Assembly: GCA_011523055.1 (NCBI GenBank)
Contig: WTHQ01000039.1
Span: 1-64,000 of the forward strand
Length of the DNA stretch: 64,000 bases
From: Methanobacteriota archaeon
GTDB lineage: Archaea; Thermoplasmatota; Poseidoniia; Poseidoniales; Thalassarchaeaceae
Reading direction: 5' to 3'
Shown: positions 21,402-30,538 of the stretch, one piece after another
Layout of the letters: each line of letters starts with the position of its first letter
Position numbering within the stretch: the first letter of the stretch is position 1
Notes under the pieces: generated by a model
Told to the model about the DNA's origin: nothing
Database searches by the model: none
Seen by the model: the letters and a program-made list of their open reading frames with translations, nothing else
Translations under genes and position numbers: made by a program

Positions 21402-22625
21402 ATGTCCACAGAAAGAGGCCACAGTCTGGTGGAAATCTCTGAACTAGGGCTGGACCCTGGCGTTCCAAAGCAGGAATTGCGAAGGCTGATCACCCCCAAA
21501 TCAGTATGCGAATACCGGGCCTTGCTCGCATCCAAGGCAAGTTTGCCAGAGGGGCTCATTTTGGATCCAGCTGCTGGTTCGGGCGGACAGCTCCTCGCCT
21601 ATGGCAAATACATCAGCAAGCACTGTGTAGGGGTAGAATTGTCGCCTGAGCGCGCAAAGTATTGCGGTTATGTTCTATCTCGAGCTAATTCAACGGGATC
21701 GTTCATGACGATATGTGGGGACGGGATTGATGCACATGGTGTAATGGCAGCCGTGAAAACCCAGATTGGAGTCTCTTCTGTCAGCATGTTGCATGTTGAT
21801 CCCGCTCGTCCGATGGATACCCAGAAACACTCGGTGTCTGAGATGCAACCACCACTGGCTAAGTTGCTAGAATCATGGTCAGAATACATCTCTTCGGGGG
21901 AACAAGGGCCTGCTATGGCATTGGATCTCTCCCCAAGGCTGGCCGGACAACAAATGTCCGAGATAGAACACATAGTCACGACCATATTCCCTGGGACAGC
22001 CATGACATGGGAATGGCTCAGTAGGGGCGGGGGTCGAGTTGACAGGTTGTGTCTTCACACCGGGCCCCTTGCACACACTCCTTCAGTGTCGAAATCTGTC
22101 CGTCTTTACAACGACGGTAGTTTTTCAGTATTGCACGCCAGAGAGGAGGAGCTTGACTCGGAAGACTCAGGTTGGCCGAATTATGAGGTCATGGAGGGGG
22201 ACACGGTGGCCTTGGTCGACCCGGTCGTAACCAAATCTCGGTTGAGGGGCGTTTTCGAAGATCGCTTGGGGTACAATCGTGGAGAACTGATCTGGGCGAA
22301 GAAATCTGATAGGCGCCCATTGGTTGTTCTCCGAGAGGAGATCCGACCAGGATCAGAAGCCAGACCATTCGTTATGGCCCAAGGTAAGGCAGTAGGAAGA
22401 TTGGAATCGGATCTGAGCATGATGTCAATCGACTCGTTGGCAGCGTTGGCGATGGAGAATGGGATAAGTAACATTCAGATTCGATGTTCCTGCGAGCCTC
22501 GGCTCCACAAGAGAATTACAAACAGACTGAGTAAAATAATGGGCAGTGTAGATGGGATGTCGGGCTTTTTGATCGAGGATGGAGGGACAAAAGACCTCAT
22601 GCTGTGCAGAGATGTGGAAAAATAG
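21402..22625 (+). CDS. Class I SAM-dependent methyltransferase, possibly THUMP-like type
   Basis: 407 residues. A SAM-binding motif I is clear (LDPAAGSGGQLLAYG), followed by VGVELSPERAKYC, where the acidic residue would bind the ribose of SAM. The N-terminus (KQELRRLITPKSVCEYRALL) and a C-terminal domain ending in KDLMLCRD recall the family of methyltransferases with a THUMP-like C-terminal domain, whose substrate is unknown. An RNA substrate is possible but not shown. It follows the FKBP-like gene by 15 bases and ends 88 bases before rps13. Confidence 0.65.
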   Translation: MSTERGHSLVEISELGLDPGVPKQELRRLITPKSVCEYRALLASKASLPEGLILDPAAGSGGQLLAYGKYISKHCVGVELSPERAKYCGYVLSRANSTGSFMTICGDGIDAHGVMAAVKTQIGVSSVSMLHVDPARPMDTQKHSVSEMQPPLAKLLESWSEYISSGEQGPAMALDLSPRLAGQQMSEIEHIVTTIFPGTAMTWEWLSRGGGRVDRLCLHTGPLAHTPSVSKSVRLYNDGSFSVLHAREEELDSEDSGWPNYEVMEGDTVALVDPVVTKSRLRGVFEDRLGYNRGELIWAKKSDRRPLVVLREEIRPGSEARPFVMAQGKAVGRLESDLSMMSIDSLAALAMENGISNIQIRCSCEPRLHKRITNRLSKIMGSVDGMSGFLIEDGGTKDLMLCRDVEK

Positions 22626-25267: not shown

Positions 25268-26254
25268 ATGGTTAGTTCCATGGGCATACCATGCATGGGC
25301 CATGCGACCTGCGGGGGGCACATCACGTTGATGTTCACCGTGGAAGACAGTTCGTCGGAACCGTACCTCCAAGGTAGCAGGGGAGCCGGTCTATGCCTCG
25401 AAACTGGTTGTGAGGTGTCATTAAAGGGGGTCCGGGGGGAATGGGGCATAGACGTGATGTTCAGAGGCTTCGAGGGTTCAAAGGAAATCGTCAATGTTAT
25501 TTTTGACGTTGTTTCAATGGATCTTCCCCAGATAAGAAACATGAGTTGGGCCGTCGTGGTGAACAATCACCTTCCAACCTCACAGGGTTTCGGCATGTCA
25601 GCAGCCCTTGCTATCGCGACATCAAGAGCAATCCAACGAGCAATGGGGGAGGAATATGAACTCTCACTCAGAAGATCCTTGCTACATGCGCACATAGCCG
25701 AGCGTCAAAGCTCCTCTGGTCTAGGGGACGTAACCGGGATATCTGTAGGAGGAGTCGAAATTAGGACTCGACCTGGGTCTCCATTCCATGGAAAAGGAAT
25801 GCAAAAGGGCCCTGGTGTCGCGACAGGATGGTTCGCAGACATGGAAATGACTCTTGTCTGGCCAGAGGAGATTGGGCACCACACTAGTGAGTACATTGAC
25901 GACGACGACTGGAAGAAGAGAATCAGCGATTCCGGTGAATCTTCGATCCACTCCTTATTGGAAGGATGGGGGCCGGGGTGTTGGCCAACTCTTCTTTCAT
26001 CCTCACGAGCGTTTGTGGAAAATAGCGGTTTGTTGGATGATGGGGGACGTGGAAACATACTGAACAAGGTAGAATCTGCGATCTCCAAGACAGGGGAAGG
26101 GGCTATCGCATCCCTATGCCTACTTGGTAACAGTGTAGTAATTACACGGAGAGAGTTAGTGGTACCCGTTGACCTAGATCATATTGAAAAGGCTCTTTCC
26201 GGGTCGGGCCTGAGGGTCAAAAGAGTCAGGTTAGCTGGCCTATCAGGATTCTGA
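25268..26254 (+). CDS. Pantoate kinase (GHMP family)
   Basis: 328 residues of the archaeal pantoate kinase type. Near the N-terminus, GHATCGGHITLMF corresponds to the PGHIT region of the family. The GHMP ATP loop is PTSQGFGMSAALAIA, and AERQSSSGLGDVTGISVGGVEIRTRPG matches the conserved GLGDV/GGV segment. It phosphorylates pantoate to 4-phosphopantoate, the first step of the archaea-specific CoA route; the second enzyme is encoded at 49868-50662. It follows rpoD by 30 bases and may belong to the ribosomal operon. The 3' end overlaps the facing CDIN1-like gene by 12 bases. Confidence 0.87.
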   Translation: MVSSMGIPCMGHATCGGHITLMFTVEDSSSEPYLQGSRGAGLCLETGCEVSLKGVRGEWGIDVMFRGFEGSKEIVNVIFDVVSMDLPQIRNMSWAVVVNNHLPTSQGFGMSAALAIATSRAIQRAMGEEYELSLRRSLLHAHIAERQSSSGLGDVTGISVGGVEIRTRPGSPFHGKGMQKGPGVATGWFADMEMTLVWPEEIGHHTSEYIDDDDWKKRISDSGESSIHSLLEGWGPGCWPTLLSSSRAFVENSGLLDDGGRGNILNKVESAISKTGEGAIASLCLLGNSVVITRRELVVPVDLDHIEKALSGSGLRVKRVRLAGLSGF

Positions 26255-27313
26255 GTCTCGATTCTTCTCGTGAAAGAGATCCAGTTCAGAGAGATCTAGT
26301 GGGGACGAGTCAAGGAGAATTGCCCCTCTAAGCCTCAGGGATCTACAGAATCCATGGCGATAGACTATTGCACCTTGGCCGTATTCTGAAACATAACGAT
26401 CCACTTGTTTCTGAGTCTTCTTTCGTGGGAATCCCAATGCAGCTCCGAAGAAATGCTTTGCGTCAATCCAAGCGCATGGAGTTCCGTTTATCCTCACATC
26501 ATCGAGAAGCAGCAAATCTGGGGTGATAATCGCACGTCCTTCGCTTCTCTTCTGCTCGATTTCCAGGTCACTCTGCTTTCGATAACGGACTCCGAGCTCT
26601 GTGAAGTGCGAGCAAAGTATGTCCTCAAAGACCTCTGCTGCTGATTGGGTTTCGCTTTGATTTACGGAGCTGACTCGATCTGCTTCCTCAGCCATTTGGA
26701 ACTGCTCATAGTCTCTATCTTTCAATTTGGACTTGGGTGATTTCAACGACTCTTTGATTCTGTTTTTCGACCATCCTCTTCCGGTCAAAATTGCCCGGAA
26801 TGTGTTCACGGGGGGTGCGTCGAACCGCTTTGACAGGGACAAAACAGATTCTCCGTCGTCGTACCTCCTTCTGAGCTCATTCGACCTTCGCATTAGTCGG
26901 CTGTGTGAATAGACGCTTTTTTCTTGGTTCAAAGCAGCCCTGAGTGAGAGTGCTTGTTCCAGGGTGATGTTCATTTCTGATATCTGATTGGCAATCTCAT
27001 CGACCCTCTCCTGGGGGAGGTACCCGAACTCGCCCTTTCGAGTGACAATGTCCCCGACTTTGTCCTGTACTGACTTCGACACGCCCTTGACTTGCCAATC
27101 TATCTCTATCTTCATTGGCGGGGGGTCGATAGACTCGGGGATGCCTGTGGGAGGCGGGGAAGAAGAGAATCTATCCAGAGCACGCCGTATGGGCTCAGAG
27201 TCCTCCTTAGGAAGGGTTTTTTCCCTATATGGAGATCTCTGAGTCCGGCCTTTTCTCCCCGGGGATCCGTTCTCTTTCGACTTCAACGACACTCCGTGTG
27301 GGGTACACTCCAT
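26243..27313 (-). CDS. CDIN1/C15orf41-like protein (TPD domain, PD-(D/E)XK nuclease fold)
   Basis: 356 residues. The C-terminal ~130 residues carry the TPD signature: IITPDLLLL, then CAWIDAKHFFGA, then YGQGAIVYRHGF. The human CDIN1 protein (congenital dyserythropoietic anaemia type I) has the same order: TPD, a W-I-D-(S/A)-K stretch and a G-x-V-I-Y-x-x-G-F end. The D of TPD and the D-x-K pair fit the active site of a PD-(D/E)XK nuclease. The middle region (~residues 140-200, SRLMRRSNELRRRYDDGESV...) looks like a helix-turn-helix DNA-binding unit. The N-terminal ~60 residues are basic and Pro-rich, probably disordered. It is the third gene after leuS and a DCC protein. Confidence 0.75.
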   Translation of the reverse strand: MECTPHGVSLKSKENGSPGRKGRTQRSPYREKTLPKEDSEPIRRALDRFSSSPPPTGIPESIDPPPMKIEIDWQVKGVSKSVQDKVGDIVTRKGEFGYLPQERVDEIANQISEMNITLEQALSLRAALNQEKSVYSHSRLMRRSNELRRRYDDGESVLSLSKRFDAPPVNTFRAILTGRGWSKNRIKESLKSPKSKLKDRDYEQFQMAEEADRVSSVNQSETQSAAEVFEDILCSHFTELGVRYRKQSDLEIEQKRSEGRAIITPDLLLLDDVRINGTPCAWIDAKHFFGAALGFPRKKTQKQVDRYVSEYGQGAIVYRHGFCRSLRLRGAILLDSSPLDLSELDLFHEKNRDSES

Positions 27314-27682: not shown

Positions 27683-30538
27683 TCAAACAAAAGCTATGCC
27701 TGGCTCTAATGGCATTGCGAACCTTGCCTTGCCACCAACATCTTCTCCCAACCCTGCCTCATATACATCGACTTGTTTGATACCAAGGCTCGTGGCAATA
27801 AAATGGCGGTCTGCATCGAGTATGCTGAGTTCCATCTCTGGAATTGAAATCAAAGCTTTTTCATCCTCTGACCATGTTTGTATTTTTCCACGCTTTTTCT
27901 TTGCCCCAGTCGTGATCATTGACCAGGTTTGCATGACCTTCCCTTTGTCCTCTGAAGTGGTGAAAGTAGGGTGTGACTTTATGTGGTCCAGTCCCGAATT
28001 AGGGAAGTCAAAGCCCACTCTCGAAAGAGAAACTGCTTCTGATGCCAAATCCTGCGCCCATGAGGGGGCTGTTTGGATTACCATTCTCTCTAGTGGTCTG
28101 TCTGAGTGCCTCTGAGCCAATGTCAATAGGTTGCGCGAGGTGTCTATCACTGACTTGAGGTAGGTCTCAGTTGCAAGTAGGACCTTGTCATCCTGCGTTA
28201 CCTCTTCCGGCTTAGCAATCTTGTTCGCTAGCATGCCCTTACCACCGATGCTCATCCAAAGCTCCTCAGCGATATGTGGAGTGGCAGGTGCGATCATCTG
28301 AGCCCATATCGACATGTAACTCAATGCTGCGTTCCTGTCGGAACCGCCCCTTCTCTGATACCACTGCCAATCTGAGAGCATCTCATAGTGGCTGATCATC
28401 ACCCCTTCCCTTAGGCTGACATTCTCCATGGATTGCATCCACCTGATCATATTGTACCTTCCTTTTGCGAGAAGCCAATTGTCAATATTCTGCTTTGAAT
28501 CGCCAAAGGATAGGGGGGCCTGGAAAGCGTCGATAATGCTCACAAGATGACGGTGATTCGAGTCTATTGCCGTGTCAGACCATTCCATTCCAGCCTCTGG
28601 ATTTGCTCCGAAGAGAATGAAGAGTCTGACTGTGTCAGCGCCATATCTATCAATCATCTCAACAGGACTTACTGTGTTGCCTAGTGATTTGCTCATTTTC
28701 GCTGACCTAGTTCCCAGCACATCGCCGCAACTCGGGCATGATTGGCCGTCAAGGTCAACATGATACTCAGCATTACATGACTTACAGTAGGGAGCGGGTG
28801 CGTTTAACATCCCTTGACAGACCAACCTTTCAAAGGGCTCCCCAACTGAATTCATCCCCATGTCACGCGTTGCCTTGGTGAAGAACCTGGCATAGAGTAG
28901 GTGCATGACAGCATGCTCGATACCACCGATGTAAAGGTCGACGCCGTCCCCCATCCAATAGTCGACAGCCTGCCTTGAGAAAGGAGATTCGGAATTCTTG
29001 GCATCGCAAAATCTCATGAAGTACCAGGAGGAATCGTAGAATGTGTCCATGGTATCCGTCTCACGTGTGGCTTCAATTCCGCATTTAGGACAATTCACAC
29101 TGCAAAATTTCTCATGGCTGGCCAGGGGATTTCCTCCTTGATCCTCTGAGAATGTCAAATCCAGTGGCAGTGTGACTGGAAGTTCCTCCTTGGGGACTGG
29201 GACTGTGCCACAAGACGAGCAATGGACCATTGGTATTGGTGTGCCCCAGAATCTTTGTCTGCTCAGAAGCCAGTCTCGAAGCCTATACTGGGTCTTCCCT
29301 GAACCCGAGTTCTCGGATTCCAACAGGGAGATCACAGCGGATTTGGCCTCGTCTCCGGCGAGCCCGTCCAATTCCATCCTTGTCGACCCGAACATGGGAC
29401 CGTATCCGGTGAAAGCCGAACTAGCACTTTCTTCCGAATTTGAATTTGACCCGTCTTCAAGGACTGTGCGAATCTCTAGTCCGTACTTGGTTGCGAATTC
29501 AAAATCCCTTTGATCGTGCCCGGGGACTGCCATGACGGCACCTGTTCCATATCCAGCGACTACGAAGTTCCCTGCATAGATTGGAATTCTCTCTCCGCTT
29601 AGTGGATTCAATGCATAGCGACCGAGGAAGACGCCCTTCTTTTCTTTGAGGAGGTTAATTCGCTCGAATTCTGAAAGCTTCGCGCATTCATCCTTGAGTT
29701 CAAGCCAGCCGTCCTCCCAACTAGACCCGCTGCAGAGGATAGGACATAGCTCATGCTCAGGGGATAGGGTGAGAAATGTGACTCCGAAGATAGTGTCTGG
29801 CCTAGTCGTAAAGCATGCAATCTCGTGATTGGATCCCTCGACGGGGAATCGGATTTCAGCACCTTTCGATCTGCCAATCCAATTCCTCTGCATCGCCTTC
29901 ACGTTCTCCGGGAATCCTATCTGATCGAGGGAGTCGAGAAGCTCGTCTGAGTATTGTGTCATTCGCAGGAACCATTGAGACATGTCTCGTTGGACAACCT
30001 CCAACCCACATCTCCAACACCTATTGTTCTTGACCTGCTCATTCGCAAGTACGGTGTCACAGTCAACGCACCAGTTCACCGGGGCGGACCTTCTTTCCAC
30101 GAGCCCCTTTTCATACAGATCGAGAAACATGGATTGATTCCATTTGTAATAGTCTACCTCTGAGGTGGCGAATTGCCGTCCCCAGTCGTAAGAGTACCCC
30201 ATCCTTTTCTGGTCTGACATGATACTAGAGATATTCCGATTGGTAACATCTGCAGGATGTCCTCGTTCCTTCTTAGCAGCATTCTCAGCTGGCATTCCGA
30301 ATGAGTCGTACCCCATTGGATAGAGTACGTTTTTACCCATCATTCGTTGAAACCTAGCCATTGCATCACCAATTGAGTAGTTTCGTACGTGGCCCATGTG
30401 CATGTTCCCAGAGGGGTAGGGGAACATCTCAAGGCAGTAGAACTTGGGCTTGCTGTGGTCAACCTCTGCCAGAAACACGTTTTTCTTATCCCAGGTATCC
30501 TGCCAACGGAGTTCGATTTCGGTGTGATCGTACTTCAT
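27683..30538 (-). CDS. leuS: Leucyl-tRNA synthetase, bacterial type
   Basis: 951 residues. The class I signature is PYPSGNMHMGHVRNYSIGD at ~40-58, which is the bacterial form; archaeal LeuRS has a different sequence around its HIGH motif. The KMSKS motif (AKMSKSLGNTV) is intact. The editing domain has the TTRPDTIFGVTFL motif. Two zinc-type Cys clusters (CVDC...CWRC and CKSC...CPSC) are present. It charges tRNA-Leu and removes wrongly charged norvaline or isoleucine. The ATG is preceded by aggagg (30545-30550). Replacement of the archaeal enzyme by a bacterial one is inferred from motif type only. Confidence 0.95.
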   Translation of the reverse strand: MKYDHTEIELRWQDTWDKKNVFLAEVDHSKPKFYCLEMFPYPSGNMHMGHVRNYSIGDAMARFQRMMGKNVLYPMGYDSFGMPAENAAKKERGHPADVTNRNISSIMSDQKRMGYSYDWGRQFATSEVDYYKWNQSMFLDLYEKGLVERRSAPVNWCVDCDTVLANEQVKNNRCWRCGLEVVQRDMSQWFLRMTQYSDELLDSLDQIGFPENVKAMQRNWIGRSKGAEIRFPVEGSNHEIACFTTRPDTIFGVTFLTLSPEHELCPILCSGSSWEDGWLELKDECAKLSEFERINLLKEKKGVFLGRYALNPLSGERIPIYAGNFVVAGYGTGAVMAVPGHDQRDFEFATKYGLEIRTVLEDGSNSNSEESASSAFTGYGPMFGSTRMELDGLAGDEAKSAVISLLESENSGSGKTQYRLRDWLLSRQRFWGTPIPMVHCSSCGTVPVPKEELPVTLPLDLTFSEDQGGNPLASHEKFCSVNCPKCGIEATRETDTMDTFYDSSWYFMRFCDAKNSESPFSRQAVDYWMGDGVDLYIGGIEHAVMHLLYARFFTKATRDMGMNSVGEPFERLVCQGMLNAPAPYCKSCNAEYHVDLDGQSCPSCGDVLGTRSAKMSKSLGNTVSPVEMIDRYGADTVRLFILFGANPEAGMEWSDTAIDSNHRHLVSIIDAFQAPLSFGDSKQNIDNWLLAKGRYNMIRWMQSMENVSLREGVMISHYEMLSDWQWYQRRGGSDRNAALSYMSIWAQMIAPATPHIAEELWMSIGGKGMLANKIAKPEEVTQDDKVLLATETYLKSVIDTSRNLLTLAQRHSDRPLERMVIQTAPSWAQDLASEAVSLSRVGFDFPNSGLDHIKSHPTFTTSEDKGKVMQTWSMITTGAKKKRGKIQTWSEDEKALISIPEMELSILDADRHFIATSLGIKQVDVYEAGLGEDVGGKARFAMPLEPGIAFV

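Follow-up and report, generated by a model that had tools for sequence, protein, structure and literature searches.

Mutations in CDIN1 (C15orf41) lead to congenital dyserythropoietic anaemia type I, and the human protein carries the TPD domain (PF14811). The literature contains no report of nuclease activity for human CDIN1, although assays with a fragment of codanin covered a broad range of substrates (PMC7261414, PMC13370696). Homologues have already been published from archaea (PMC7092493; PMC6519365), among them Euryarchaeota (PMC7092493), and viruses have also been said to hold the family (PMC6519365). Codanin, the partner of CDIN1, is known from no archaeon, and Codanin-1 is younger than C15orf41 (PMC7092493). 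The existence of archaeal CDIN1-type genes is prior knowledge, and the gene described in our study, from a 64 000-nucleotide stretch of a Poseidoniales contig (the window), is a much diverged further member. Its product shares with CDIN1 the TPD domain, the motif order and a helical N-terminal region followed by a nuclease-type fold, but differs in an additional tail at the N-terminus, in an insert that ends in GR and precedes the TPD motif, and in DAK rather than ESK. Other Thermoplasmatota TPD proteins (e.g. L100 and L092) have the same catalytic residues and the same order of secondary structure; they differ in length (mostly 250–310 aa), in carrying KTPD and WIESKA, and in their neighbouring genes.

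The gene occupies positions 26243–27313 on the minus strand, which are filled exactly by one open frame of 356 aa starting at ATG. The real start may be a TTG at 27286 (codon 10), which would give 347 aa, as the codons preceding it vary among relatives, a TTG-AGY-GAA start is common to five of them and a GGAG lies 5 nt 5′ of the TTG. PF14811 was the sole Pfam match of the protein (residues 205–329, positions 26327–26701, minus strand; E 8e-19), its 68.3 bits passing the curated cut-off of 27 bits, and the NCBIfam profile search returned no match. The same domain was matched by 17 of 17 aligned members of the order and by 56 of 56 other archaeal relatives. The first-pass annotation had assigned the gene to the CDIN1 family from three motifs in CDIN1 order, and these were indeed found, at residues 264–266 (TPD), 282–286 (WIDAK) and 314–322 (GAIVYRHGF, for GxIVYxxGF). 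TPD followed by W-[IV]-[DE]-x-K was kept across relatives as well. On these sequence comparisons, the product is confirmed as a genuine, strongly diverged TPD/CDIN1-family protein.

The conserved E, D and (D/E)xK of PD-(D/E)XK phosphodiesterases are present in the protein. Across an alignment of 57 sequences, E230, T264, P265, D266, K286, Q303 and Y307 were invariant and position 284 was D or E, the D284 of the window protein being E in other archaea. Alignment of 19 order-type with 20 other archaeal sequences likewise found E230, TPD, D/E-x-K, Q303 and Y307 to be kept. As the window protein is 20–28 % identical to its other archaeal relatives, motifs that are invariant or nearly so at this distance are not there by chance. 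Lack of a TPD match, or variability of the putative catalytic residues (E230, D266, D284/E and K286) in orthologues, would have spoken against the earlier nuclease reading; both were looked for and neither was seen. The copies of this order nevertheless carry substitutions of their own, namely DAK for ESK, loss of the K before TPD, E160 to Q247, S191 to A and W224 to R (R319), of which the Lys of KTPD, E160, S191 and W224 are invariant elsewhere; the GR-ending insert (259–260) is also specific to the order. Between the window and a same-genus species, nonsynonymous differences per site were 0.065 in residues 212–340 and 0.229 in residues 1–80, and synonymous differences were saturated at 0.6–0.9. 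The low nonsynonymous change, set against saturated synonymous change, indicates strong purifying selection on the TPD core.

The predicted model of the window protein had a mean pLDDT of 70.5 with a confident core, and that of a relative a pLDDT of 92.5, with helices and strands in the same order. In the window model this order is a helix (224–239, with E230), a strand, a helix, a strand (267–275, directly after D266), a strand (278–288, with D284 and K286), a helix (296–311, with Q303 and Y307) and a strand. By order of secondary structure, both models display the alpha-beta-beta-beta-alpha-beta core of the PD-(D/E)XK type, and in both the key residues sit in the expected elements. A Foldseek comparison of the two models with the PDB gave no match below E 0.5 (best E 0.56–0.61); the weak matches include the PD-(D/E)XK-type nucleases DdmD, AgeI, SfsA, Hef/XPF, EcoT38I and I-Ssp6803I. 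Sequence search of the PDB found no relative of the TPD protein, and profile searches of 56 relatives gave weak matches to RmuC in 15 and to Hjc in 2.

Two descriptions of the N-terminal half in the first-pass annotation stood in part. The proposed helix-turn-helix-like middle region (residues 144–211, positions 26681–26884, minus strand) was modelled with confident helices over residues 140–210 (block pLDDT 93–98), but the Pfam search of the window protein found no HTH family, and Myb/HTH matches among the relatives were weak only. The disordered basic N-terminus corresponds to an order-specific, fast-evolving extension of about 80 residues (positions 27074–27313, minus strand). It is mildly basic, its first 60 residues containing 12 K/R and 8 D/E, and more strongly Arg-rich in relatives; its pLDDT is below 50 over most of residues 1–76, but this is where the alignment had few counterparts.

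The genome of the window contains one TPD copy. Within its family the gene was found in 113 of 118 genomes and in all 11 genera, nearly always once, and it was present in 144 of the 245 genomes of a wider Thermoplasmatota sample. Across the order as a whole, almost every genome has it as a single copy. Members from Poseidoniales scored 65–82 bits, compared with 126–168 bits in the rest of the phylum. In the phylogeny, the Poseidoniales copies grouped as a single clade with 100/100 support, subtended by a very long stem. The same-class group f3 was the first branch among the other archaeal copies, which fits vertical descent, subject to the program's warning that these two long branches may be falsely joined. 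Giant viruses also carry the family by structure match: against predicted viral proteins, the model of the relative matched an unnamed protein (E 8e-14, TM 0.77), a megavirus TPD-domain protein (E 8e-10) and, from a mimivirus, a protein that bears the name CDAN1-interacting nuclease 1 (E 4e-8). A mobile origin was rejected, as the related archaeal query found no relative in phage and plasmid records, and neither it nor the window protein found one by sequence in viral contigs.

Upstream of the TPD gene, on the same strand, lie a gene for a DCC1-like thiol-disulphide oxidoreductase (PF04134; 27332–27673, minus strand) and leuS (27683–30538, minus strand). The arrangement looks like an operon, with gaps of 18 bp from the TPD gene to DCC and 9 bp from DCC to leuS, and to this extent the operon named in the first-pass annotation stands; it is not, however, a conserved unit across loci. 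These locus comparisons rest on stop positions, matches and spacings, gene starts being approximate. Only 3 of the 11 genera of the family have DCC in this position (loci: the window and L072, L062, L067). Wherever the contig reaches, leuS in this family lies directly upstream of the TPD gene or past only DCC or a small frame, and in the sister family (f2) it is also upstream, separated from the TPD gene by one to three others. At 20 sampled loci outside the order, all from Thermoplasmatota, no member of the leuS cluster was found near the TPD gene. The suggestion that operon context would inform on function was not supported, as DCC occurs in few genera and the leuS linkage was seen in one order only; the neighbouring genes say little about what the TPD protein does.

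On the other side, a GHMP-kinase gene and, at most loci, a block of rpo3-rps11-rps4-rps13 run convergently to the TPD gene. In the window the GHMP-kinase gene (25268–26254, plus strand) and the TPD gene overlap at their 3′ ends by 12 bp. The kinase is pantoate-kinase-like, at 75.6 bits against a family cut-off of 380, and is fixed beside the ribosomal block in the order. Also beside this block is a conserved 407-aa gene (21402–22625, plus strand) with a sub-threshold methyltransferase match. The leuS gene is of bacterial type (TIGR00396, 872 bits, against 250 bits for the archaeal TIGR00395). Genes of the same leuS cluster stand at the order's remaining loci, a pattern suggestive of an old transfer. 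In the sister family (L073–L079), a gene of approximately 900 aa lies between leuS and the TPD gene, usually on the opposite strand, and in L077 it contains thrombospondin type-3 repeats.

In other lineages, the most repeated co-directional neighbour of the TPD gene is a Cas4-like gene of DNA-nuclease type, matching both the PDDEXK_1 and Cas4 models. Relative to the stop codon of the TPD gene, it starts at −37 to +93 bp in 41 of the 80 best-scoring relatives, and a wider gene order is also common to many of these loci. The Cas4-like PD-(D/E)XK protein (L092:6889–7878, plus strand, and 40 further loci) has hydrophobic, membrane-like stretches and conserved cysteines. Relatives of it were found in 163 of 245 Thermoplasmatota genomes, both with and without a TPD gene, and none was detected in the genome of the window; the linkage to TPD is therefore suggestive only. 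A role in anti-phage defence was rejected, as a PADLOC search gave no match for the TPD proteins; the Cas4-like neighbour matched Cas4 models.

Taken together, the TPD protein is probably a divalent-metal-dependent endonuclease that recognizes nucleic-acid structure rather than sequence, and an orthologue of CDIN1. A helical and probably nucleic-acid-binding N-terminal region would be joined to a PD-(D/E)XK phosphodiesterase domain in which E230, D266 and D284 would hold the metal and K286 would activate water, and the helical region together with the basic tail would grip the substrate. Branched or damaged DNA would be a likelier substrate than RNA. Several points count against a nuclease: the absence of any published CDIN1 activity, PDB matches that all lie above E 0.5, the failure of sequence searches to find a relative in the PDB, the loss in this order of residues that are invariant elsewhere, and the Cas4-like partner that was undetected here. 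The lack of a published activity (PMC7261414, PMC13370696), together with the tight CDIN1-codanin complex (PMC7261414), would also suit a protein that retains a nuclease fold but binds nucleic acid or serves as a scaffold without catalysis. An enzyme that had become inactive should have lost some of its metal-site residues, whereas all of these were kept through very large divergence and the D/E exchange is a conservative one at the (D/E)XK position, so we regard a scaffold as distinctly improbable. An RNA-processing nuclease acting on tRNA, rRNA or mRNA, with the human complex working like a CNOT1-nuclease module, seems unlikely, albeit with several observations in its favour. CDAN1 is similar to CNOT1, around which a deadenylase complex is built (PMC11911400), the genes next to TPD in this order serve translation and transcription (leuS and rps13-rps4-rps11-rpo3), and in a few cases elsewhere a CCA-adding enzyme or ABCE1-like gene adjoins the TPD gene. 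However, these neighbours are housekeeping genes that vary by lineage, the ribosomal block is convergent to the TPD gene, the most repeated co-directional neighbour elsewhere is the DNA-nuclease-type one, and the domain search of TPD proteins found no RNA-binding domain.

That the protein is a Holliday-junction resolvase equivalent to Hjc is very unlikely, even though C15orf41 has been likened to archaeal Hjc (PMC7261414), the two share a fold superfamily by motif and topology, and Hjc was undetected in some TPD lineages, including all sampled f29 genomes and the control Methanosarcina acetivorans. A separate Hjc gene is present in the genome of the window (L182). Among the 245 genomes, 123 carried both genes, 21 TPD only, 91 Hjc only and 10 neither, and the two were not complementary (Fisher P 0.33, for genomes that are not independent). 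The window protein had no match to PF01870, profile alignment against 21 Hjc proteins (hhalign) was not significant (E about 0.1–0.2), and human CDIN1 left junctions uncut (PMC7261414). Replacement of Hjc in the window's own genome was rejected on the grounds of its own Hjc and the lack of a complementary distribution. As a separate observation, no Hjc match was found in the whole of the sampled TPD-carrying families f29, f35 and f3, nor in the single f36 genome.

The genome of the window gave no match to canonical histones (PF00808) at E 0.001, with a sub-threshold fragment at E 0.006. Poseidoniales have been reported with acidic four-fold histone-like proteins that possibly do not bind DNA (PMC13260811), and for this reason the label ‘histone-less’ is not used here without that caveat. 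With its own Hjc and no canonical histone detected, neither sole responsibility for Holliday-junction resolution nor a role in histone work is likely for the TPD protein of this genome.

In summary, six residues that survive the largest divergence (E230, D266, D/E284, K286, Q303 and Y307) are those worth testing. The earlier advice to study the protein in a simple genome is weak for the window's lineage, from which we know of no genetically tractable isolate. Methanosarcina acetivorans is a laboratory archaeon with established genetics. It carries the TPD family and so offers the practical model, and since it also lacks an Hjc match the question is directly testable there. The TPD gene is retained in a genome in which canonical histones went undetected, and the Cas4-like gene is a possible partner in other archaea. 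A more speculative extension, which we hold to be doubtful, is that CDIN1 derives from an ancient archaeal genome-maintenance nuclease unrelated to histones or codanin, made in many archaea with a Cas4-like nuclease bearing membrane stretches, its active site kept through strong remodelling in one marine order. If this were true, a human disease protein would have an ancestral activity that can be assayed.
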